64,000 nucleotides of DNA, taken from assembly GCF_030699305.1 (NCBI RefSeq), contig NZ_JAUYNB010000013.1, forward strand, positions 62,001 through 126,000, read 5' to 3'. Within the stretch, counting starts at the first letter, position 1. Each line of letters starts with the position of its first letter. The notes under the pieces were generated by a model that saw nothing but the letters and a program-made list of their open reading frames with translations, was not told the DNA's origin and made no database searches. The position numbers and the translations under genes were made by a program. This DNA is from Novosphingobium sp. (lineage in GTDB: Bacteria > Pseudomonadota > Alphaproteobacteria > Sphingomonadales > Sphingomonadaceae). Positions 9,185-45,138 of the stretch are shown here, piece by piece.

Positions 9185-9987
9185 GCCCCGTTGCGGGCGA
9201 TCAGTGCCGCCAGTTCGCGTACCAGTTTGGCCGCGAGGATGGCGGTGCGGTCGTTGTGGTCGAACCGGGGGTTCAGTTCGACGATGTCGGCGCCGACCAC
9301 CGGCGCGCTCTGGCGGCGCAGGACGGCCAGCACTTCGCGCACCGTCAACCCGCCGGGTTCCGGGTGCGACACACCGGGGGCTTCTGACGGGTCAATCCCG
9401 TCGAGGTCGATGCTGATATAGAGCGGGCCTTCCAGCACCGGCACGGATGCGGGGGTGAAATCGGCCAGCGGCACGATCTCCACCCCGAACCGCGCCGCCT
9501 GTTCGCGGCAATGGCGATTGAGTGTGCGGATGCCGACCTGCACCAGCCGCCGGGCAAGACCACCTTCCATGATCCGCGCGAACGGCGAGGCGTGGCTGCG
9601 CGGATTGCCTGCGAAATCGGCGTAAAGGTCGGGGTGCGCATCGAAATGCAGGATGGTGAGCGGGCCATGTTTGGCATGAACCGCCTGCACCACCGGGTGG
9701 GTCATCGCGTGATCGCCGCCGAGCGCGAGCGGGACCGCACCCGCCCCCAGCGTTTCTGAAATTGCGGTGCGGATCAACGCATCGTCGTCCGCCGTTTCGC
9801 GCAGGGGCAGGTCACCGCGATCTGTCAGGTCGAAGTCCTGGCCGACCTCCATCCCGTTTTCACACGCCAGATTGCCCCGGTCGGACCACAGGGCGCTGCG
9901 AATCGCTGCCGGAGCCAGCGCCGGGCCGCGTTCGAACGAGGAATTGCTGTCGCTGGGCAGTCCGACCAGCTGGATCGTCGGCCGCAT
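9181..9987 (-). CDS. Arginase/agmatinase family ureohydrolase
   Basis: 268 residues from ATG 9987 (MRPTIQLVGL), the usual size. This start avoids overlap with the upstream glutathione transferase, whose stop is 4 nt away. A longer reading frame exists but lacks support. The binuclear manganese ligands are complete: GGDH (D92/H93), DAHPD (D116, H118, D120) and SIDLDGIDP near residue 202. Members hydrolyse arginine, agmatine or formiminoglutamate to urea or formamide. Substrate is uncertain. It probably shares an operon with the GST at 9992. Confidence 0.87.
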   Translation of the reverse strand: MRPTIQLVGLPSDSNSSFERGPALAPAAIRSALWSDRGNLACENGMEVGQDFDLTDRGDLPLRETADDDALIRTAISETLGAGAVPLALGGDHAMTHPVVQAVHAKHGPLTILHFDAHPDLYADFAGNPRSHASPFARIMEGGLARRLVQVGIRTLNRHCREQAARFGVEIVPLADFTPASVPVLEGPLYISIDLDGIDPSEAPGVSHPEPGGLTVREVLAVLRRQSAPVVGADIVELNPRFDHNDRTAILAAKLVRELAALIARNGA

Positions 9988-9991
9988 CCGC

Positions 9992-10612
9992 TCAATAGCC
10001 GTAATAGGCCCCGCCCTTTGCACGGGCGCGCTGCCAGGCGGGGCGGGCGTGGGCGGCGGCGACAAATGCGGCCAGCCCGGGATACTGCGCGCCCGCCCCC
10101 TGCATCACCGCAATTTCCGCCGGGAAGCTGAGCATCACGTCCGCCCCGGTCCAGTCATCGCCGACGAAGTGCCCGCTGGGGCGCAGTTCACCTTCCAGAT
10201 AGGCGAAGTGGCTGGCCAGCTGTTCGTTAATCCGCGGGGTCAGCGGCGCGGCAGCATCGCCGAGCCGCGAGGTGTAGAGTTGCAGCAGGATCGGGGTCAT
10301 CGCCGACCCTTCGGCAAAGTGCATGAACTGCGAATGGCGCAGCGCATCGGCGGCCGCAGGCTGGAACCGCCCGCCCCCGTGCGTGTCGATCAGATACTGC
10401 ACGATCGCGCCGGATTCCTGGATCACATCGCCCGCATCCTCCAGCAGCGGTGATTTGCCGAGCGGGTGAATCGCCTTCAGTTCCGGCGGAGCCAGATTGG
10501 TGACGGCGTCGCGCTGATACGGACGCAGCTCATACGGCAGTTCGAGTTCCTCCAGCAGCCAGAGGATCCGCTGCGAACGGCTGTTGTTGAGGTGGTGGAC
10601 GATCAGCGACAT
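9992..10612 (-). CDS. Glutathione S-transferase family protein
   Basis: 206 residues from the ATG at 10612, which has GGGAG about 8 nt upstream; the longer open frame upstream is not needed. The N-terminal thioredoxin-fold domain shows HHLNNSRSQRILWLLEELELPYEL and the glutathione-binding cis-Pro/Ser segment LGKSPLLED...IQESGAIVQYL. The C-terminal helical domain follows, with FVGDDWTGADVMLSFP matching the conserved N-capping box. It probably detoxifies electrophiles by conjugation. It is first in a two-gene unit with the arginase-family gene. Confidence 0.88.
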   Translation of the reverse strand: MSLIVHHLNNSRSQRILWLLEELELPYELRPYQRDAVTNLAPPELKAIHPLGKSPLLEDAGDVIQESGAIVQYLIDTHGGGRFQPAAADALRHSQFMHFAEGSAMTPILLQLYTSRLGDAAAPLTPRINEQLASHFAYLEGELRPSGHFVGDDWTGADVMLSFPAEIAVMQGAGAQYPGLAAFVAAAHARPAWQRARAKGGAYYGY

Positions 10613-10711
10613 CTGGATTCTCCCGGTATGATTTGCGGTCACGCTAAACGGCTTGCCACGACGCGGCCAGTGGCCTTTGGTCACGCGTGCACCGCAACCA
10701 GCCAGACAGAC

Positions 10712-10751
10712 GAAAAACCGGCGCAGTGCGGGTTGAGAGCACTGCGCCGGT
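10712..10751 (-). terminator. Terminator downstream of recA
   Basis: A perfect 13-bp inverted repeat, ACCGGCGCAGTGC / GCACTGCGCCGGT, with a 9-nt loop. Read on the minus strand it ends in TTTTT, about 108 nt past the recA stop. Confidence 0.85.
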
Positions 10752-10858
10752 CCTGTTTCGTGGAAGCACTCCCCCTTGGGTTTGGGGGACAGAAGGAGCC
10801 ACTTCCCTTCAACCCCGCAGCGGCAGCGGGCGGCTGCCGAGGCGGAATTCTTCGGGGA

Positions 10859-11926
10859 TCAGGTGTCGTCGTCCGCGTCCGGACCCGCCATCATCTCCAC
10901 GGCAAGACCTTCGGTCTGGCCGCGGATCGCAGCCTCCAGCCGGTCGCAAATTTCGCGGTTTTCCTTGAGGAACGTCTTTGAATTCTCACGGCCCTGGCCG
11001 ATCCGGATGCTGTCATAGCTGAACCACGCGCCCGACTTCTCGACGATCCCGGCCTTCACGCCCAGATCAAGGATTTCCCCGATCTTGGAGATGCCTTCGC
11101 CGTACATGATGTCGAATTCCACCTGCTTGAACGGCGGGGCGACCTTGTTCTTGACGACTTTCACGCGGGTCGCGTTGCCGACGATTTCGTCACGATCCTT
11201 GATCTGCCCGGTGCGGCGGATGTCGAGCCGGACCGAAGCGTAGAACTTCAGCGCGTTGCCGCCCGTCGTGGTTTCCGGGTTGCCATACATCACGCCGATT
11301 TTCATGCGCAGCTGGTTGATGAAGATCACCATGCAGCGCGAGCGGCTGATCGAACCGGTCAGCTTGCGCAGGCTCTGGCTCATCAGCCGGGCCTGAAGGC
11401 CGACGTGGCTGTCGCCCATTTCGCCTTCGATTTCAGCGCGGGGAACCAGTGCGGCAACCGAGTCCACCACCAGCACGTCGATCGCGTTGGAACGCACCAG
11501 CGTGTCGACGATTTCGAGCGCCTGCTCGCCCGTATCCGGCTGCGAGACGATCAGCTCGTCGATATTCACGCCCAGCTTCTTGGCATAGACCGGATCGAGC
11601 GCGTGTTCGGCGTCGATGAATGCGGCCGTACCGCCCGTCTTCTGCGCTTCGGCGATCACGTGCAGCGCCAGCGTGGTCTTGCCCGAGCTTTCCGGGCCGT
11701 AGATTTCGATCACGCGGCCGCGCGGCAGGCCGCCCACGCCCAGCGCGATATCCAGGCCCAGCGATCCGCTGGAAATCGCTTCCACCTGCATCGTTTCCTT
11801 CGAGCCGAGCTTCATCGCGCTGCCCTTGCCGAACGCGCGGTCGATCTGCGCCAGCGCTGCTTCGAGCGCCTTTTGACGATCCATGGTATCTTTGCCTTCC
11901 TGAATCAGCTTGAGCTGTGCAGCCAT
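10859..11926 (-). CDS. recA: Recombinase A
   Basis: 355 residues, full length. It forms the ATP-dependent filament for homologous recombination and stimulates LexA self-cleavage in the SOS response. Walker A GPESSGKT is at residues 77-84, followed by [10 protein letters not shown], the VVDSVAAL Walker B region, and the L2 loop with [16 protein letters not shown]. The C-terminus ends in the usual acidic tail DADDDT. Upstream is a perfect alphaproteobacterial SOS box overlapping the probable -35 box, so it should be damage-induced. A strong terminator follows, so it is probably monocistronic. Confidence 0.99.
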
Positions 11927-11974
11927 TGTCCGTCCCCTTGCCTAACTCGCTGACCAGGAAGGTCAACTGACGCG

Positions 11975-12012
11975 TTTGTATCGCGTTTGTTCCAGTGGAA
12001 CAAGAGGGGAAC
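11975..12012 (-). promoter_or_regulatory. recA promoter with LexA (SOS) box
   Basis: On the minus strand GTTC-CCCTCTT-GTTC (12012-11998) fits the alphaproteobacterial LexA operator GTTC-N7-GTTC exactly. Its second half overlaps a -35 TTGTTC (12003-11998), followed by a 17-nt spacer and -10 TACAAA (11980-11975). Bound LexA would block polymerase. Confidence 0.85.
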
Positions 12013-12031
12013 TAAAATTTTCCTGCACCGC

Positions 12032-13135
12032 TCAAGACACGGGGATTTCCTTGGGTTTGTCGAGCCTGCGGATCAGCGCACGGGCCAGATTGTTTGCGGG
12101 CGTTTCGATGAACCGCAGCGTGATTCGCCCGGCCCAGAACAGCACCAGCACATTGATCGCGAACAGTGGCAGCGCGATCAGCCATTCGGACAGCGGATCG
12201 CCTTCGAACCACCAGATCACCCACGCGGACGGCTGCCACACCAGCAGGAAATGGAGCACGTACAGGCTGAAGCTGACCTTGCCGATCGCGACCAGCCAGC
12301 CGCCCTGTGCGTTCTGCCCGCGCAGCCAGTTGGCGAGGAACACCGAGGCGATCCCGGCAAACGTCGGCAGGACGCCGTAAAGCGGCCGGACATCCGCCAC
12401 GATCACCCAACTGCACAGGCTGAAGCCAGCGATCGCAAGCAGCCCGTCACGCAGCCGGTGCGGCGCCAGCGCATCCCCGCGCCACGCCGCGAGGTAATAG
12501 ACGATGCCGATCATGAACACCGGGAACTGGGCTATGAACACGGTATAGGGGAACTGGTTGTTGGCGATCCAGCGGCCGGTTTCCAGCCGGTAGCCAAAGT
12601 GCCAGCCGAGTGCGACCAGCAGCGCAAACGCCATCCACCCCGCCAGCACGCGCGCGCCAAACCGCCGCCAGCTGCGCTCCACCGCCCAATAGAGCGCCGG
12701 GAAGATGAAGTAGAACAGCATTTCCGCCCCGATCGTCCACCCGCCCGGGACGATCGAATTGTTGGCGGACGGGATCACCCCGTGCACGAAGAACACGTTC
12801 GCCAGAATGTTGTCGGCGGTATAGTTCGCCCCCTTGCCCACCCCGATATAAAGCGCGGAGTAGGCCGCGATCCCCAGGTAATAGAGCGGCGCGATCCGGA
12901 AATAGCGGCGGATATAGAAGTTGCGCACCCCATGCGCCTCACCCGCGCGCTGGTCCGCCGAGAGGCACAGCGTGAAGGCAGAGGCGACGAAGAACAGCTG
13001 CACGCCGACCTGCCCCGTCGCGCCGATGATCTTCAGCGCCGGGCTGGCGAACATCTGCGCATAATGCACCGCGATCACCGCAAGGATCGCCAGACCGCGC
13101 ATGCGGTCCACAAAATCGAGCTTCTGGACAGGCAT
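12032..13135 (-). CDS. Acyltransferase family 3 (OafA/YrhL-like) membrane protein
   Basis: 367 residues with about ten hydrophobic segments. The N-terminus has FVDRMRGLAILAVIAVHYAQ, matching the LRGLAALxVxxxH signature whose His acts in acyl transfer, and the family's FFVASAFTL and RRYFRIAPLYY segments follow. These inner-membrane enzymes O-acylate sugars of polysaccharides, peptidoglycan or glycolipids. It sits upstream of recA in the same orientation but is probably separate, since recA has its own promoter. Target sugar unknown. Confidence 0.87.
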   Translation of the reverse strand: MPVQKLDFVDRMRGLAILAVIAVHYAQMFASPALKIIGATGQVGVQLFFVASAFTLCLSADQRAGEAHGVRNFYIRRYFRIAPLYYLGIAAYSALYIGVGKGANYTADNILANVFFVHGVIPSANNSIVPGGWTIGAEMLFYFIFPALYWAVERSWRRFGARVLAGWMAFALLVALGWHFGYRLETGRWIANNQFPYTVFIAQFPVFMIGIVYYLAAWRGDALAPHRLRDGLLAIAGFSLCSWVIVADVRPLYGVLPTFAGIASVFLANWLRGQNAQGGWLVAIGKVSFSLYVLHFLLVWQPSAWVIWWFEGDPLSEWLIALPLFAINVLVLFWAGRITLRFIETPANNLARALIRRLDKPKEIPVS

Positions 13136-13226
13136 GGCGGCGCTATGCCCAAGTCCGGCGCATAAGCAACCGGGGAACAGGGGCTATCGTCAGATTCCGT
13201 GCGCCCGGCCCGGCCATGCTAACGGA

Positions 13227-14000
13227 TCAGCGCCCGGTCCAGCGGGGCTGGCGCTTTTCGGCAAACGCCAGCGGGCCTTCACGCGCGTCCTCGCTGGTGC
13301 GCCAGGCCTGGAACGCGGCCCAGCCGGGCTGCGCTTTCATGGCGGCCTCGACATCGGCTTCGGCGAGGCCGCGCAAGGTGACTTCCTTGGATGTGCGCAC
13401 CGACATCGGCGAGGCTTTGAGGATATCGGCGCACCACCGCGCGGTGCAGTCAGCCAGGTCTGCGTCCGGCACGACTTCAGTAACGAAGCCCATCCGGAAG
13501 CCATCGGCCGCGCTGACTCGCCGCGCCGCCAGGATCATCCCCATCGCCTGCTTGAGCGGGGCCTGCCGCGCCAGCCGGTGCAGCCCGCCGCCCAGCGCAA
13601 TCGCGCCGACCAGCGGCTCGGGCAGGCCAAAGCTGGCGCTTTCCGCCGCGATCACGATATCGCAGGCCAGCGCCACTTCGAACCCGCCGCCCAGCGCGAG
13701 GCCATTGACGGCGGCGATGAACGGTTTGGGGCAATCGAACCGCTCGATCAGTCCGGCATAGCCGTGCGCGGGATAATCGCGGTGCCCTTCGAGCGCGGCG
13801 GCCTTGAGGTCGGACCCGGCGCAGAAGCCGCGCCCTTCGCCGGTGATGACGCAGATGTGTTCGTCCGGCGCGGCGGCATAGGCGTTGAAGGCCTGCTCCA
13901 GCTCATCGTGCATCGCCGGGTTGATCGCGTTGAGCACCTCGGGCCGCGCCAGCGTCACCGTCCGCACCCCGCCGGTCACCGTCACCTTGATATGCCGCAT
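13227..14000 (-). CDS. Enoyl-CoA hydratase/isomerase family protein (second crotonase)
   Basis: 257 residues from the ATG at 14000, preceded by a good GGAGGGG ribosome site; the open frame upstream of it is not supported. Oxyanion-hole segments CVITGEGRGFCAGSDL and AAVNGLALGGGFEVALACD are intact, with FGLPEPLVGAIALGGGLHRL containing the second acid. The C-terminus LAFAEKRQPRW is family-typical. It is a CoA-thioester hydratase or isomerase of uncertain substrate and a distant paralogue of the gene at 1474. Confidence 0.9.
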   Translation of the reverse strand: MRHIKVTVTGGVRTVTLARPEVLNAINPAMHDELEQAFNAYAAAPDEHICVITGEGRGFCAGSDLKAAALEGHRDYPAHGYAGLIERFDCPKPFIAAVNGLALGGGFEVALACDIVIAAESASFGLPEPLVGAIALGGGLHRLARQAPLKQAMGMILAARRVSAADGFRMGFVTEVVPDADLADCTARWCADILKASPMSVRTSKEVTLRGLAEADVEAAMKAQPGWAAFQAWRTSEDAREGPLAFAEKRQPRWTGR

Positions 14001-14140
14001 CCTCTGCCCCTCCTGTGTGCCGTTCTGCCCGGTTCTACCGTTCCACACTTCACCAGCCCGCGCCACCGCGCTGCGCGATTTTCCTACAAGTGCCAATTTG
14101 GTTACAAGGATGTGTTTCATCAACCAAATGGAGTAAAGGC

Positions 14141-14554
14141 ATGGCAATTCTTGAAACCCTGATCGGTCCGATCGCCGCGATCATCGACAAAATCATCCCC
14201 GACAAAGCCGCGCGCGACAAGGCCAAGCTGGAACTGTTGCAGTTGCAGGGATCGCAGGAACTGGCCGAAATCCAGTCGCGCCTGTCGGCCATCATCGCGG
14301 AAGCCAATTCCGCCGACCCGTGGACCAGCCGCGCGCGGCCCAGTTTCCTCTATGTCATCTATGCGCTGCTGCTGTGGGCGCTGCCGATGGGGTTGATCGC
14401 GGCGTTCCGGCCGGATTCGGCCCAAGCCATCGCGGCGGGGATGAATGCCTATCTGGCTGGCCTGCCAGAGCCGCTCTATGCCCTGTTCGGCACGGGCTAT
14501 CTCGGCTACACCGCAGCGCGGCAGTGGGGCAAGATTTCCGGCAGCGACAAATAG
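14141..14554 (+). CDS. Holin family protein, GTA-type 3TM holin
   Basis: 137 residues. An amphipathic N-terminus (MAILETLIGPIAAIIDKIIPD) precedes a charged helix rich in Lys, Asp, Glu and Gln. Two clear membrane helices follow (FLYVIYALLLWALPMGLIAAF and LYALFGTGYLGYTAA) after the DPWTSRARPSF motif. This is the pattern of the alphaproteobacterial gene-transfer-agent holin family. Holins let an endolysin cross the inner membrane. No endolysin, capsid or other phage gene lies nearby, so its present role is open. GGAG lies about 9 nt before the ATG. Confidence 0.75.
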   Translation: MAILETLIGPIAAIIDKIIPDKAARDKAKLELLQLQGSQELAEIQSRLSAIIAEANSADPWTSRARPSFLYVIYALLLWALPMGLIAAFRPDSAQAIAAGMNAYLAGLPEPLYALFGTGYLGYTAARQWGKISGSDK

Positions 14555-14627
14555 GCGAACCGGTGCGGTGCGGCGTGGTCAGCTTCGGGTAAGGTTTTGC
14601 CGCTATTGCCGCCGCGTGGAGTTGAAC

Positions 14628-14900
14628 ATGAATCACAACAAAAACCGCCGTCGCACCGCCCTGCCCCTGGTTCTGAGCGTGGCCGCTGCCCTGTTGCTGT
14701 CGGGCTGCTCCAACCGCGAGGAAAAGCTGACCGAGGCCATCGCCACGGCCAATGCCGCCGCCGACCGCGCCGAACAGGCCGCCAAGCGCGCCGAGTCAGC
14801 CGCAAAGAACGCCGCCAGCGAAGCCCCCACGGAAACCGTCATCAACGAAGTCGAACCGGACGATACCGCGCCGGAAGACGGCGGCCAGACCGGCGAATAG
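14628..14900 (+). CDS. Small alanine-rich lipoprotein
   Basis: 90 residues. A basic N-terminus and hydrophobic core (LPLVLSVAAALLLSGC) end in a lipobox with the acceptor Cys about residue 27. The mature part has Ala/Lys/Arg/Glu heptads (ATANAAADRAEQAAKRAES), an Lpp-like alanine zipper likely to form a coiled-coil oligomer, then an acidic tail. It probably sits in the outer membrane facing the periplasm. No SD is obvious close to the ATG, though the lipobox supports this start. Function unknown. Confidence 0.78.
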   Translation: MNHNKNRRRTALPLVLSVAAALLLSGCSNREEKLTEAIATANAAADRAEQAAKRAESAAKNAASEAPTETVINEVEPDDTAPEDGGQTGE

Positions 14901-15008
14901 CCAATCTGCCGGTCACCCTAACCGCTACCCCCTTGCCCCGGTGGCCCAGCGGGCTATTGATGCGGCAGGGCATGGCCCGGCGGCTGAATTACAGGGATTG
15001 GGGCATCG

Positions 15009-15446
15009 GTGGCGGACAAGACGATATTCGTGCTAAACGGGCCGAACCTGAACCTGCTCGGCACGCGTGAGCCAGAAGTTTACGGCCATGAGACGCTGGA
15101 TGATATCATGGCGCGTCTGTCCGCCGCTGCGGCCCCGCACGGCTTTGCCATCGACGCCCGGCAATCGAACCATGAAGGCACGCTGGTCGACTGGCTCCAC
15201 GCCGCACAGGCCGCAGGCGCACACTGCGTGCTGCTCAATGCGGGGGCCTATACCCACACCAGCGTCGCGCTGCATGACGCGATCCGCAGCATCACGGTGC
15301 CGGTGATCGAGGTGCACTTGTCGAACCCCCACCTGCGCGAGGAATTCCGCCACCAGAGCTTCGTCGGCATGGCCGCGAAGGGGACGGTTTGCGGATTCGG
15401 GGCTGACAGTTATCTGGTCGCGCTGGACGCTGCCGCGCGGCTGTAA
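15009..15446 (+). CDS. aroQ: 3-dehydroquinate dehydratase, type II
   Basis: 145 residues, the usual size for the dodecameric type II enzyme that makes 3-dehydroshikimate in the shikimate pathway. Visible are FVLNGPNLNLLGTREPEVYG with the catalytic Tyr, QSNHEGTLVDWLH, NAGAYTHTSVALHDA and EVHLSNPHLREEFRH with the catalytic His. The start is a GTG at 15009. It is followed within 100 nt by accB and accC, an arrangement often seen in alphaproteobacteria. Confidence 0.95.
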   Translation: MADKTIFVLNGPNLNLLGTREPEVYGHETLDDIMARLSAAAAPHGFAIDARQSNHEGTLVDWLHAAQAAGAHCVLLNAGAYTHTSVALHDAIRSITVPVIEVHLSNPHLREEFRHQSFVGMAAKGTVCGFGADSYLVALDAAARL

Positions 15447-15539
15447 AGCGGGCGCGGCGGGTAAAACCGCCACTTCGCCCCTTGCCTCTGCCCGCCGCCC
15501 CGCGCATAGGCGGGGTTGAGTAACAACCATGGGGATCGC

Positions 15540-16022
15540 ATGAGCGACGCAAAGGGCGCTGGCCGAAACGGCGGCATGAACATCGACAGCAAACTGGTTC
15601 GCGAACTGGCTGAACTGCTGGTCGAAACCGGTCTGAGCGAGATCGAGGTCGAGGACGGCGATCGCAAGATCAAGGTTGCGCGCCAGATCACTGCGGCACC
15701 GGTCGTTCACACGGTTGCCGCCCCGGCTGCGGCCGCACCGGCTCCGGTCGTGGCTGCCCCGGCTGCCCCCGCCGCCCCGGCGGTGGACGCCAACGCGGTC
15801 AAGTCCCCGATGGTCGGCACCGTCTATCTCTCGCCCGAACCGGGCGCGGCAGCGTTCATCACGGTTGGCCAGACGGTCAAGCCCGGTGACACCCTGGTCA
15901 TCATCGAAGCGATGAAGGTGATGAACACGATCACCGCAACGGCCGCTGGCACGGTCACGGCGATCCTGGTCGACAATGCGCAGCCGGTCGAATTCGACCA
16001 GCCGCTGGTTGTCGTCGCGTAA
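15540..16022 (+). CDS. accB: Biotin carboxyl carrier protein of acetyl-CoA carboxylase
   Basis: 160 residues from ATG 15540; a TTG at 15516 is possible. The N-terminal part is followed by a long Ala/Pro-rich flexible linker (about residues 55-85), then the biotinyl domain with the biotinylation site EAMKVMN, whose Lys is the acceptor. It carries CO2 between AccC and AccAD in malonyl-CoA synthesis. accC begins 13 nt after its stop, so the two are surely co-transcribed. Confidence 0.95.
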
Positions 16023-16035
16023 AGGCGCACATTCC

Positions 16036-17385
16036 ATGGCGATCACCCGGCTCCTTATCGCCAATCGCGGCGAGATTGCCCTGCGGATTCACCGTGCAGC
16101 GCGCGAAATGGGCATTGAAACGGTCGCGGTCCATTCGACCGCCGATGCCGATGCCATGCACGTCCGGCTGGCCGATCATGCGGTCTGCATCGGCCCCCCG
16201 GCGGCCAAGGACAGCTATCTGAACGTGGCGGCGATCATTTCGGCGGCGGAAATTGCCCATGCCGATGCGATCCACCCTGGCTATGGCTTCCTGTCCGAAA
16301 ACGCGCAGTTCGCCGAAATCGTCGAAGCCCACGGAATTACGTGGGTCGGCCCGAAGCCCGAACACATCCGCACCATGGGCGACAAGGTTGAGGCCAAGCG
16401 CACCGCAGGCGCGCTCGGCCTGCCGCTGGTCCCCGGCAGCGACGGCGCGATCAGCGATCCGGTCGAAGCGGCGAAGATCGCGGCTGAAATCGGCTATCCG
16501 GTGATCATCAAGGCGGCCTCTGGCGGCGGCGGGCGCGGCATGAAAGTGTGCACCGGCCCGGATGAGCTGGAAACGCTGATGCAGCAGGCCGGGAGCGAGG
16601 CGAAAGCCGCGTTCGGCGATGCCACCGTCTACCTCGAAAAATACCTCGGCAACCCGCGTCACATCGAGTTTCAGGTGTTCGGCGATGGCAACGGCAACGC
16701 GATCCATTTGGGTGAGCGCGACTGCTCGCTCCAGCGCCGCCACCAGAAAGTGCTGGAAGAAGCCCCTTCGCCCGTCATTTCGCCCGAAGAGCGGGACCGG
16801 ATGGGCGGGATCGTTTCGCAGGCGATGGCCGGAATGGGCTATCGCGGGGCCGGCACGATCGAGTTCCTGTGGGAAAATGGTGAGTTCTATTTCATCGAAA
16901 TGAACACCCGCCTGCAGGTCGAACACCCCGTCACCGAAGCGATCACCGGGGTCGATCTGGTCCGCGAACAGATCCGCATCGCCGATGGCAAGCCGCTGTC
17001 GGTCAAGCAGGAAGATATCGAATTCAACGGCCACGCGATCGAATGCCGCATCAACGCGGAAGATCCGTGGACTTTTGCCCCCTCACCCGGGCTGGTCAGC
17101 AACTATCACGCCGCTGGCGGGATGCACGTGCGGGTCGATTCCGGGCTCTATGCCGGATACAAGATCCCGCCGTATTACGATTCCATGATCGCCAAGCTAA
17201 TCGTCTATGGCCGCACCCGCGAAGGCTGCATCATGCGCCTCAAGCGGGCCTTGCAGGAAATGGTGATCGGCGGCGTCAAAACCTCGATCCCGCTACATCA
17301 GGCCCTGATGAACGAGCCGGACTTCATCCACGGCGATTACACGATCAAGTGGCTGGAGGAATGGCTGGCGGAACGTCAGGCCTAA
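16036..17385 (+). CDS. accC: Biotin carboxylase subunit of acetyl-CoA carboxylase
   Basis: 449 residues, full length. It carboxylates the biotin of AccB using ATP and bicarbonate. The N-terminus [13 protein letters not shown], the ATP-grasp glycine loop [34 protein letters not shown] and [14 protein letters not shown] are all intact. ATG 16036 gives the standard start [13 protein letters not shown]. It is the second gene of accBC. Confidence 0.97.
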
Positions 17386-17504
17386 TCCGCCAAAACTCCT
17401 CCCCGTTTTTGCCGCATGGCACAAATGGGGAGGTGGCATTCGAAAAGCGCATGACGCAGGCGGGCTGAGTCGGCTTGGCGGGGAGCAAAACCAGCCCACA
17501 CCCG

Positions 17505-17588
17505 CGTCACCCTGAACTTGGTTGGCGCTTATCCCCTTCGCCACCGTAAAGTCTAAACCGTCATGCTGAACTTGTTTCAGCATGACGG
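17505..17588. repeat. Paired palindromic repeat (BIME-like), copy 1
   Basis: A degenerate copy CGTCACCCTGAACTTGG (17505-17521) is followed at 17558-17588 by a perfect hairpin with 13-bp arms CCGTCATGCTGAA / TTCAGCATGACGG and loop CTTGT. The same elements recur in pairs at 46707-46797 and 51169-51302. It lies between the accC and AsnC-type gene stops and could serve both as a 3' structure. Confidence 0.75.
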
Positions 17589-17614
17589 AATTGGAAGCGG
17601 CGTGGCGGCCCCGG

Positions 17615-18079
17615 CTACTCCAGTGGCACACCCGGCAGCTGTTTCGCGGTGCGGATCGTCAGCGACGTTTTCACGCTGGCCACGTTCGGAGCCGGCGTCA
17701 GCTTGCTGGTCAGGAATTCCTGAAAGCTCTGCAGGTCCTTGCTGACGATCTTCAGGATAAAGTCGATCTCGCCGTTCAGCATGTGGCATTCGCGCACTTC
17801 GGGCAGGCCCTTCATGTGGTCCTCGAACTGGCGCAGCGATTCCTCGGCCTGACTTTTCAGGCTGACCATGGCGAACACGGTAATCGCGAAGCCCAGCTTC
17901 GAGGCATCGAGATCGGCATGATAGCCGCGGATCACGCCGGATTCCTCCAGCGCGCGGACGCGGCGCAGGCAGGGGGGCGCGGTGAGGCCGACGCGGTTCG
18001 CCAGCTCGACGTTGGTGACCCGCCCTTCGTCCTGAAGTTCGGCCAGCAGCCGCCGGTCGATTGAATCGAGATTTGCCAT
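17615..18079 (-). CDS. Lrp/AsnC family transcriptional regulator
   Basis: 154 residues from the ATG at 18079, the usual length. The N-terminal winged HTH has the family's LDSIDRRLLAELQDEGRVTNVELANRVGLTAPPCLRRVRALEESGVIRGY pattern. The C-terminal RAM domain (HMLNGEIDFILKIVSKDL) binds amino acids and oligomerises. It probably regulates amino-acid metabolism. The AT-rich interval 18080-18301 separates it from the divergent histidine kinase gene and is a plausible shared control region. Confidence 0.93.
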   Translation of the reverse strand: MANLDSIDRRLLAELQDEGRVTNVELANRVGLTAPPCLRRVRALEESGVIRGYHADLDASKLGFAITVFAMVSLKSQAEESLRQFEDHMKGLPEVRECHMLNGEIDFILKIVSKDLQSFQEFLTSKLTPAPNVASVKTSLTIRTAKQLPGVPLE

Positions 18080-43831: not shown

Positions 43832-44482
43832 TCACAGCCGCCCGCTTTTCCAGACGACCCGCCCGATCACTTCCACTTCATCGGGCGACAGCTCGATCCG
43901 GCCATAAGCGGGATTGTCGCTGACCAGCGCGATCAGGCCGGGTCGCCCCACGTCCAGTCGCTTGACCAGCAGCGCATCGCCGGTGCGGACCACATGAATG
44001 CCGTCGCGCAGCGGCCGGGGCGTGCGATCGACCAAAATCTCGTCCCCGTCACGCAAGGTCGCCTCCATCGAATCGCCTTCGACCCGAATCGCCGAGAGCA
44101 TTCCGGGTGGCAGGCCTTGTTCACGCAGCCACCGCGACGAGAAGCGGAACGCGCCAATCGGCTGCTCCTCCAGCGCCAGCGCCCCCGGTCCGGCCGAAGC
44201 GCCCAGCGGCAGGCGCGGCACATCGCACCATTCGCTGCGCAGCGGCTTTCCGGCCGAACCCAAGGATTTTTCCTCTGGCGCACCCAGTTCCGATTCGCCC
44301 ACGCCAAAGAACCGGGCCAGCGTTCGCCGATCCGTCTCCTCCAGCTTGCGCGGGCTGCCCTTGCGAATAAACTGCTGCAAATACGTCGAGTTGCGCCCGA
44401 TCAATTCGGACAAACCCGACAAGCTGGTGCCGCGTTCGCTGGCCAGTTCCAGCAAGCGCACCCTGGGATCAGAAGTAACCAT
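43832..44482 (-). CDS. HTH-type repressor with S24 (LexA/CI-like) peptidase domain
   Basis: 216 residues from ATG 44482; a TTG at 44485 is also open. The N-terminal XRE-like HTH has SLSGLSELIGRNSTYLQQFIRKGSPRKL. A linker with ASAGPG may contain the Ala-Gly cleavage site. The C-terminal S24 domain has the catalytic Ser in EGDSMEATLRDGD and the Lys in ALLVKRLDV, so both residues of the dyad are kept. This is the build of phage CI-type repressors. It diverges from a 62-residue HTH-like gene, and the ATG may be the transcript's first base (see findings). Confidence 0.9.
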   Translation of the reverse strand: MVTSDPRVRLLELASERGTSLSGLSELIGRNSTYLQQFIRKGSPRKLEETDRRTLARFFGVGESELGAPEEKSLGSAGKPLRSEWCDVPRLPLGASAGPGALALEEQPIGAFRFSSRWLREQGLPPGMLSAIRVEGDSMEATLRDGDEILVDRTPRPLRDGIHVVRTGDALLVKRLDVGRPGLIALVSDNPAYGRIELSPDEVEVIGRVVWKSGRL

Positions 44483-44554
44483 CAATTGATGATAGCTGAT
44501 GTATTTTTCCTAGACAAGTAGGATTTCTCCCTGAATTAATGGGGCAATTCCTAC
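44483..44554. promoter_or_regulatory. Overlapping divergent promoters and palindromes of the S24 switch
   Basis: Minus strand: -35 TTGTCT (44517-44512), 17-nt spacer, -10 TATCAT (44494-44489), then CAATTG directly before the ATG. Plus strand: -35 TAGACA (44511-44516), 18 nt, -10 ATTAAT (44535-44540). The two -35 boxes overlap. Palindrome CATCAATTGATG (44480-44491) covers the repressor start, and GTAGGA/TCCTAC arms at 44518-44523 and 44549-44554 flank the plus -10. All are candidate operators. Confidence 0.55.
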
Positions 44555-44600
44555 GGCGATTCGCACATCGCTCCATTCAGACGACACAGGAGGTGCCCAT

Positions 44601-44789
44601 ATGCTGATACGCCGGATCGAACGATTCCTGCGCGAAACCGGGATGCCCTGGACCAAGTTCGGGCGCCTCGCCGCGCATGATCCGCGCTTTGTCCAGGACT
44701 TGCGCAATGGCCGCGTACCGCGCGCCGCGACCACCTCACGCGTGGAACATTTCATGAACATTTATAGCGAGGAAGCCTGTGCAAATTGA
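44601..44789 (+). CDS. 62-residue HTH-like protein divergent from S24 repressor
   Basis: ATG 44601 follows a strong ribosome site AGGAGGTG at 7-8 nt spacing. The protein is MLIRRIERFLRETGMP then WTKFGRLAAHDPRFVQDLRNGR, which reads as a minimal helix-turn-helix (helix, tight turn, recognition helix), and ends with a short helix VEHFMNIY. It resembles a lone Cro-type or CopG/XRE mini DNA-binding protein. No domain beyond this is visible. It is divergent from the S24 repressor and overlaps the next gene by 11 nt. Confidence 0.72.
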   Translation: MLIRRIERFLRETGMPWTKFGRLAAHDPRFVQDLRNGRVPRAATTSRVEHFMNIYSEEACAN

Positions 44790-45138
44790 TCCTGCCGCCG
44801 CCCGTTCGATGCAATCCGCCGCCCGCCGCAGCCCGTGGCTGTTGCTATTGTCCACGCTGCTCGAACTGGGGCACGGCAAAGCCGAACTGGTCCGCCACGC
44901 CGAACGCAGCTGGGCCAGTGCCACCTTTTCCGGCACCCGTCACACGGTGGTGCTGTCCTTCACCGGGCTGGACGCGGTGGCTGCCGGGGAAGCCCTGATT
45001 GCCGCGCTGCCCGACCACGAATTCGTGATCCCCGGTCAACTGGTGGCCGATGCCAATGTGATCGCGGTAGACCACACCGCCCTGCCCCAGCCGCACCTGC
45101 AACTGGAAGTGGAACTGCTGCTGTTGGAGGATTGCTGA
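44779..45138 (+). CDS. Hypothetical 119-residue protein
   Basis: Starts at GTG 44779 inside the end of the 62-residue gene, with GAGGAAG just upstream; ATG 44809 is an alternative. The N-terminal third is helical (PWLLLLSTLLELG), followed by an alpha/beta part, TVVLSFTGLDAVAAGEALIAALPDHEFVIPG, ending in a Leu/Glu strand. I do not recognise the family. Coupling to the HTH-like gene suggests a joint unit. Codon use is like the rest of the window. Confidence 0.65.
   Translation: MQIDPAAARSMQSAARRSPWLLLLSTLLELGHGKAELVRHAERSWASATFSGTRHTVVLSFTGLDAVAAGEALIAALPDHEFVIPGQLVADANVIAVDHTALPQPHLQLEVELLLLEDC

Follow-up and report, generated by a model that had tools for sequence, protein, structure and literature searches.

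Regulatory regions of temperate phages such as lambda, 434 and P22 are built from a divergently transcribed S24 repressor gene and small helix-turn-helix (HTH) gene that share an operator, and the cI mRNA that lambda transcribes from PRM is leaderless. Here we present a computational analysis of a locus of comparable design in Novosphingobium sp. (assembly GCF_030699305.1), located in a window of 64,000 nucleotides, by which we mean the whole stretch of DNA analysed (contig NZ_JAUYNB010000013.1, positions 62,001 to 126,000). The module consists of a gene for an S24 repressor, a divergent gene for a 62-residue, predicted Cro-like protein (p62) and, downstream of the latter, a gene for a 119-residue protein (p119; Table 1). 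Like the phage regions, it has divergent CI and Cro-like genes around a shared, putative operator, and a homologous gene pair occurs in phages. It differs from them in having one main operator instead of three, in carrying candidate LexA and GANTC sites, in being a chromosomal core locus, and in its surroundings, where host gene families are found rather than the lytic genes that phages carry in cis.

Among host systems, the closest parallel is FddR of Francisella, a phage-derived S24 repressor that recognises a palindromic site in the promoter of its own gene and controls a divergent gene (PMC13148647). Both are small core units, genus-wide in the case of FddR and family-wide here. Canonical LexA is described as absent or diverged in the FddR system, whereas LexA-type boxes are present at the locus studied here; the FddR site, GTG-N11-CAC, comes from EMSA, whereas ours, TCCTAC-N4-CTAGGA, is deduced from sequence conservation; and the divergent gene is here Cro-like and followed by p119. 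The locus would represent another stand-alone S24 unit beside FddR, one to which LexA and a methylation site apparently add further layers of control. Judged by titles or the opening of abstracts, none of the matches listed from the open-licence literature described this locus, and a DAP-seq paper (PMC12352068) lists XRE/HTH factors.

Our preferred reading, to which we assign a probability of about 0.68, is that the locus encodes a phage-type CI/Cro switch that belongs to the family core, is shared with phages, and would be wired to DNA damage and perhaps to the cell cycle. Its more surprising parts, as judged from sequence comparison, are an operator common to phage contigs and a LexA box that apparently lies within the codons of p62.

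Table 1. Features of the S24-p62-p119 locus, in window coordinates.
Feature	Position	Strand	Remarks
S24 (CI/LexA-type) repressor gene	43832..44482	-	216 aa; ATG at 44482
S24 start codon, predicted leaderless 5' end	44480..44482	-	from distance and absence of a Shine-Dalgarno sequence in relatives
Palindrome CATCAATTGATG of the initial annotation	44480..44491		judged incidental
-10 TATCAT of S24 promoter	44489..44494	-	17-nt spacer; 6 nt before ATG
Putative S24 operator O1, TCCTAC-TTGT-CTAGGA (minus)	44508..44523		16-bp inverted repeat holding both -35 boxes
Candidate -35 TAGACA of p62 promoter	44511..44516	+	in O1; tentative
-35 TTGTCT of S24 promoter	44512..44517	-	TTGTCT in 85/99 loci
Candidate -10 ATTAAT of p62 promoter	44535..44540	+	18-nt spacer; by eye, weak
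GANTC (CcrM-type), CGATTCG on p62 strand	44558..44562		conserved GANTC in relatives
p62 Shine-Dalgarno AGGAGGTG	44588..44595	+	from sequence
p62, predicted Cro/lambda-repressor-like HTH protein	44601..44789	+	62 aa
Putative LexA box GTTCATGAAATGTTC in p62 (codons E-H-F-M-N, 49-53)	44745..44759	-	exact GTTC-N7-GTTC
p119	44779..45138	+	119 aa; start overlaps p62 end

A three-gene module conserved in Sphingomonadaceae

The S24 protein matches the S24 domain (Pfam PF00717, E 1.8e-21, 76.4 bits against a cut-off of 23.3) and the CI-like transcriptional repressor family phrog_4 (E 2.9e-37). Its sequence contains both a peptidase domain with a Ser/Lys dyad and an Ala-Gly site, as in proteins of the S24/LexA type; Ser138, Lys174 and Ala97-Gly98 are invariant in 125 of 125 aligned S24 proteins, and we infer that Ala97-Gly98 is the site of self-cleavage. 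For p62, the AlphaFold model (pLDDT 88.5) comprises four helices, with SinR, CapH, 434 repressor/Cro and P22 c2 as the best Foldseek matches (probability up to 0.94, E 0.45) and VIA Z scores of at most 7.1, led by POU/CUT domains and followed by P22 c2 at 6.3. A Cro/434-repressor-type HTH fold is predicted on these weak statistics. No Pfam family scored above its cut-off for p62, scans of p62 family members gave nothing useful, and neither did PDB sequence searches with p62 and p119 profiles. The divergent switch of phage type proposed by the initial annotation is upheld by the CI-like S24 protein, the weakly scored Cro-type fold of p62 and the presence of such pairs in IMG/VR phage contigs.

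Of 199 genomes of the family, 182 have a match to S24 (E<=1e-20) and 170 have p119; among 385 genomes drawn from the class, p119 was present in five, all of the window's family. A collection of 111 S24 loci, which includes some genomes twice, from two collections, was examined by tblastn: p62 lay divergent from S24 in 105 loci and p119 was likewise present in 105, with two contig ends and one phage contig among the six p62 misses. By these sequence matches, a phage-style switch is present in most sphingomonads examined, and it is a core locus of Sphingomonadaceae. The closest locus found was that of Novosphingobium arvoryzae, whose S24 protein is 93% identical. Plasmid copies were also encountered: of 34 plasmid records with a match, four cover at least 80% of S24, all from Sphingomonas or Sphingobium and at 41-48% identity. 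The genes around the window locus belong to host families (HU/IHF-type, FabH, PlsX, MerR, MAPEG, MBL hydrolase, hydroxyacid dehydrogenase and CysS), in agreement with the earlier remark that no integrase or phage structural gene is nearby; no phage gene was present among the neighbours tested.

Comparisons of the intergenic region were based on 99 loci with distinct intergenic sequences, a set that leaves out loci lacking p62, L089, the paralogue L002 and duplicate intergenic sequences; L044, which is cut by a contig end, stays in this set and was left out of the ancestry-controlled test described below. A further set of 20 distant loci was chosen for S24 and p119 matches rather than at random, and it is within this selection that p62 and p119 were matched in 20 of 20.

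Several loci depart from the common arrangement. In a Parerythrobacter MAG (L089, and also L006) the gap between S24 and p62 is about 2.4 kb, against the usual 0.1-0.2 kb, and the operator remains beside S24. At L082 tblastn recovered p119 and no p62, and at L079 it recovered neither within the DNA covered. Several genomes carry a second S24/p62 pair (L356, L357, L358 and L359) that constitutes a separate, paralogous switch; it shows the palindrome TAGGAAG...TCCTA, has a box of the form GTTC-N7-GTTC and lacks TCCTACTTGTCTAGGA.

A putative shared operator and its promoters

Every promoter hexamer named in the initial annotation was found in the sequence where it had been placed, and the two -35 boxes fall within the inverted repeat O1, which we infer to be bound by the S24 repressor. 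O1 goes beyond that annotation, as do the third gene, the GANTC site, the LexA boxes and the conservation across the family. In the aligned intergenic regions TCC[TA]AC-N4-CTAGGA occurs in 91 of 99 relatives and CTAGGA in all 99. One group of relatives has changed the middle four bases of O1, and with them lost TTGTCT, while keeping the arms, which is the behaviour expected of an operator. Within the window O1 yields a single match at up to three mismatches, against 0.05 expected, and TCCTA-N6-TAGGA occurs at one place in the whole genome, against five per strand for a control pattern, so that any regulon acting through the full site would consist of this locus alone. A wider regulon was considered and rejected, as the 16-mer with up to three mismatches has four more places, compared with 25 and 27 for the control pattern. 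In 28 of 99 loci the interval from p62 to O1 also holds a second pair of half-sites, [GA]GGA-N4-TCC (shuffles: mean 0.63, maximum 4), and in no locus does this pair occur together with an upstream LexA box.

A different palindrome, CATCAATTGATG, had been noted over the repressor start. It is positioned as described but is weak by itself, with one match in the window at up to one mismatch (0.14 expected). It is present in one of the 99 homologous regions, that of the window itself, and was discarded as an operator.

The overlap of the two -35 boxes had also been taken to mean that polymerase at one promoter would exclude polymerase at the other. This idea is favoured by the position of both boxes inside conserved O1, but the distance from TAGACA to the p62 -10 is variable: relatives with LexA boxes have a CATAAT-type -10 that, by reading, lies about 17 to 22 nt from TAGACA, and TAGACA may therefore not serve as the p62 -35 everywhere. 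The initial annotation named no -10 for the plus-strand promoter, for which ATTAAT at 44535-44540 is the best candidate by eye, though a weak one. A Shine-Dalgarno sequence of GGAG/GAGG type precedes 64 of the 99 p62 genes.

A probably leaderless repressor transcript

The S24 promoter was the sole sigma-70-like match in a 4-kb scan, in which shuffled sequences gave a mean of 0.5 (sd 0.7). Such a match in a single sequence is not beyond chance, and the promoter is credible because it is conserved. Its -10 hexamer begins with TA in 66 of the 72 loci described below, and a T at position 6 is rare (18 of 99 loci). In Novosphingobium aromaticivorans, more than 80% of promoters are reported to lack a conserved T at -7, and the weak sixth base of the S24 -10 fits that pattern (PMC8407463).

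The 5' end of the message is predicted from the spacing between this promoter and the start codon and from the absence of a ribosome site. TTGTCT is present in 85 loci, and in 72 of them an in-frame start codon follows O1 at a distance of 24-26 nt, or 34-36 nt when counted from the T that opens the -35; the offset is exactly 25 in 62 of these (ATG or GTG, with ATG in 61), and the next-highest offset accounts for six. None of the 72 fixed-distance loci has a GGAG/GAGG Shine-Dalgarno sequence. The 14 loci without TTGTCT show the reverse, with a start at 24-26 nt in none and a GGAG/GAGG sequence in 11, and some Novosphingobium have the form with a Shine-Dalgarno sequence. Of the remaining 13 TTGTCT loci, where translation starts elsewhere, five have a Shine-Dalgarno sequence. 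Among distant host loci, 14 of the 15 that were scored keep the distance, although two of them do so only through a GTG, an ATG further on being preceded by a Shine-Dalgarno sequence; it is also kept in 7 of 12 scored phage copies; five of the 20 distant loci and four of the 16 phage copies are without TTGTCTAGG and were left unscored.

A leadered S24 mRNA would provide another explanation, in which the transcript begins at a point further upstream and the constant distance is due to the spacing of operator half-sites. We consider this unlikely. AGGA, a possible weak ribosome site, is present 5-16 nt before the start in 34 of the 72 fixed-distance loci, as that explanation would have it, but is absent from the other 38, the window among them. 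Also in its favour, 8 of the 14 loci that lack TTGTCT have a start that has barely shifted, lying at offset 23 or 27 and thus only 1-2 nt out of range; what differs in those loci is the -35 and the Shine-Dalgarno sequence. Against it, all 72 fixed-distance loci share TTGTCT, and 11 of the 14 loci without it carry a GGAG-type site. The comparison thereby bears out, for this clade, the earlier proposal of a leaderless repressor message: the S24 mRNA is probably leaderless, and the missing ribosome site before S24 would be explained as a conserved feature of such a start.

LexA boxes, a GANTC site and a model for the switch

GTTC-N7-GTTC is given as the alphaproteobacterial LexA motif in PMC3323433. 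At least one such box is present in 88 of the 99 loci, upstream of p62 in 19, inside p62 in 70, in both places in one and in neither in 11 (with L044 truncated). Like the LexA regulon of that publication, the locus shows exact matches to the motif, either at the promoter of p62 or within the gene, and a box also stands at recA of this genome; it differs in that the box is here embedded in coding sequence with frozen codons (PMC3323433). In the shuffling test, upstream boxes were counted in 18 of 99 loci, against 0.14 in shuffled sequence (maximum 2). For the internal box, the same 15 nt are found in 69 of 69 loci encoding EHFMN. His50 is CAT in 70 of 70 cases, while His26 is split between CAC (39) and CAT (35); Asn53 is AAC in 74 of 74, while Asn36 is split between AAC (45) and AAT (41). 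This frozen-codon test was performed first on a hand-made list of p62 sequences and then repeated on all 99, and when codons were resampled, the mean number of loci with an internal box was 25 of 99 and the maximum 35, against the 70 observed. A LexA box apparently is written into the codons of p62, and it looks like a regulatory site that dictates amino acids of the protein (VEHFMN).

In the 20 distant loci the same 15 nt occurred in five, a box elsewhere in p62 in one, an upstream box in seven, and neither in seven. Upstream and internal boxes seem to stand in for one another (uncorrected Fisher p 2e-11); with ancestry considered, five supported contrasts gave a median p of 0.5, which is not significant. 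No promoter was seen beside the internal box. Elsewhere in the window, an exact GAAC-N7-GAAC at 11998-12012 precedes recA, at about 70 nt from the first ATG in frame, the recA domain being located at 11087-11872 on the minus strand, and a LexA box also precedes an umuDC-like pair, named by eye, of the same genome.

Between the p62 start and O1, GANTC occurs in 97 of 99 loci, compared with a mean of 20.7 and a maximum of 31 in mononucleotide shuffles, and all four bases are used at its middle position. CGAMTCR fits 70 of the 99 loci and, on the p62 strand, fits YGAKTCK, which PMC7987155 gives as an extended GcrA-type motif; for Brevundimonas the same paper reports only a slight preference for C before GANTC and no preference for YGAKTCK. 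The genome encodes GcrA and a RAMA-domain (CcrM-like) gene. The locus thus resembles GcrA/CcrM promoters in its conserved GANTC and in the fit of CGATTCG on the p62 strand to YGAKTCK (PMC7987155, PMC4287350). It differs in the placement of the site, which in the window lies 3' of the likely p62 -10 (itself part of a weak promoter called by eye) rather than between -35 and -10. In Caulobacter, GANTC sites between and outside these elements are described as behaving differently (PMC4287350). Alternatively, CGANTCG could be an operator for p62 rather than a methylation site.

In the preferred reading, an S24 dimer would bind O1 and thereby silence the operon of p62 and p119 together with its own promoter, from which the leaderless message comes; both share the DNA of O1. 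Upon DNA damage, RecA filaments would induce S24 to cut itself at Ala97-Gly98 by means of the Ser138/Lys174 dyad, and LexA would leave its box. p62 and p119 would then be made, and p62, as a Cro-like protein, may keep the repressor off. In this clade, where the LexA box lies in the p62 frame about 20 nt before p119, LexA may either form a roadblock or control a start site within the gene, and the GANTC just upstream of p62 may offer an input from methylation (CcrM/GcrA) and hence from the cell cycle.

A plain autoregulated S24 unit without SOS input, with O1 serving the repressor and p62 and with GANTC and GAAC-N7-GAAC arising by chance or for structural reasons, appears improbable to us. Such a unit would sit well with an O1 confined to one place in the genome and with the commonness of GTTC-N7-GTTC genome-wide (110, against 61 for a control pattern), and VEHFMN could reflect constraint on the protein. 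Against it stand the 15 identical nucleotides, the codons that are frozen at His50 and Asn53 and split at His26 and Asn36, and the counts of upstream boxes and of GANTC, both of which far exceed their expectation by shuffling.

p119 and the kinship with phages

The AlphaFold model of p119 (pLDDT 91.5) has an (alpha-beta-beta)x2 topology that fits tail terminators and, only slightly less well, domains of PilO type: VIA Z scores were 9.9 each for Listeria antigen B and the monocin cap, 9.8 for RcGTA chain 4A and 9.4 for PilO. In sequence, the window's p119 had no match to PF11367 (Tail_completion_gp17), for which DUF3168 is an older name. Three of ten distant orthologues matched it below the cut-off (E 3.4e-5, 4.2e-5 and 0.0041) and seven did not match; the best of the three (G140, the same gene as L182) scored 24.6 bits in the genome search and 24.4 in the ten-orthologue scan, on either side of the cut-off of 24.5. 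HHalign of p119 against PF11367 proteins of the family gave P 0.0015 at a probability of only 16.7. The model fold and this weak sequence match, which p119 has in common with tail terminators of the PF11367 type, indicate a probable kinship with them, although p119 stands alone after p62 and outside any cluster of tail or neck genes.

A link between p119 and gene transfer agents was examined and rejected. GTA_TIM was found in 0 of 199 family genomes, and p119 does not track PF11367, because 14 of the 20 p119-negative genomes among those listed (29 negative in all) keep PF11367 and several p119-positive genomes are without it. The window's own genome contains a GTA-like cluster (L202, G000:C35:222000-241500, at about 9473-17879) with a PF11367 gene, a non-contractile tail sheath/DUF2460 gene and other tail-type genes recognised by eye.

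The exact O1 16-mer occurs in 28 IMG/VR stretches, with an S24 homologue at the site in 13, p62 in one (L256) and neither in 14. Relatives of p62 were found in 36 viral contigs and relatives of p119 in 17. The S24-p62 pair sits at the end of proviral contigs; in L310 it has a host cstA gene on one side and, on the other, phage genes that include an endolysin, and in L308 an endolysin adjoins it. On three phage contigs (L344, L353 and L339) a p119 homologue, 49-58% identical, precedes the gene for the large subunit of terminase by about 2 kb, with an HNH gene (L353) or a small-terminase gene (L344) confirmed in between. In isolate phage records S24 matches were partial, with 0 of 253 covering 80%.

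With one such switch in the core of a bacterial family and the same operator on phage contigs, cross-talk between host and phage through a shared repressor becomes directly testable. A bolder proposal would make the locus a host-encoded anti-phage switch. The core S24 repressor would recognise the operators of present-day phages with the same site and could thus keep phages of this immunity type silent as they enter; upon DNA damage, when prophages wake, LexA and S24 would release p62 and p119; p119, as a stand-alone tail-terminator-like protein, would cap or poison the tails of phages or GTAs; the LexA box in p62 would time p119 separately from p62; and phages would have captured switch and p119 repeatedly. 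We regard this as a long shot.

That p62 and p119 might instead form a toxin-antitoxin-like pair under S24 control, with p62 as HTH antitoxin and p119 as toxin, is very doubtful: a small HTH gene does overlap a second small gene, and the Foldseek matches of p62 include the antitoxins HigA/HipB, but members of the p119 family gave no toxin family in Pfam, and the model of p119 has a tail-terminator/PilO-type fold.

The history of exchange was approached with a quick tree of 68 sequences (L001, 28 random nearer hosts, 20 distant hosts, 14 phage copies and 5 paralogues). Repressors from phages and from hosts do not form separate groups in it, and the best tree requires six changes, of which at least two are forced by well-supported branches; the phage rows L328 and L330 lie on long branches. 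The 'domesticated' switch suggested by the initial annotation is compatible with these results, in which phage and host copies are intermingled and transfer may have gone in either direction. That the window copy is a prophage remnant or a recent phage capture, mere lysogen debris, is scarcely credible, as the same operator and S24-p62 pair at the ends of proviral contigs must be set against synteny across the family, which largely refutes it, open and conserved reading frames, and neighbours of which none tested was a phage gene. In one further proviral contig a D12-class adenine methyltransferase gene (L304:1357-2490) adjoins the S24-p62 pair.
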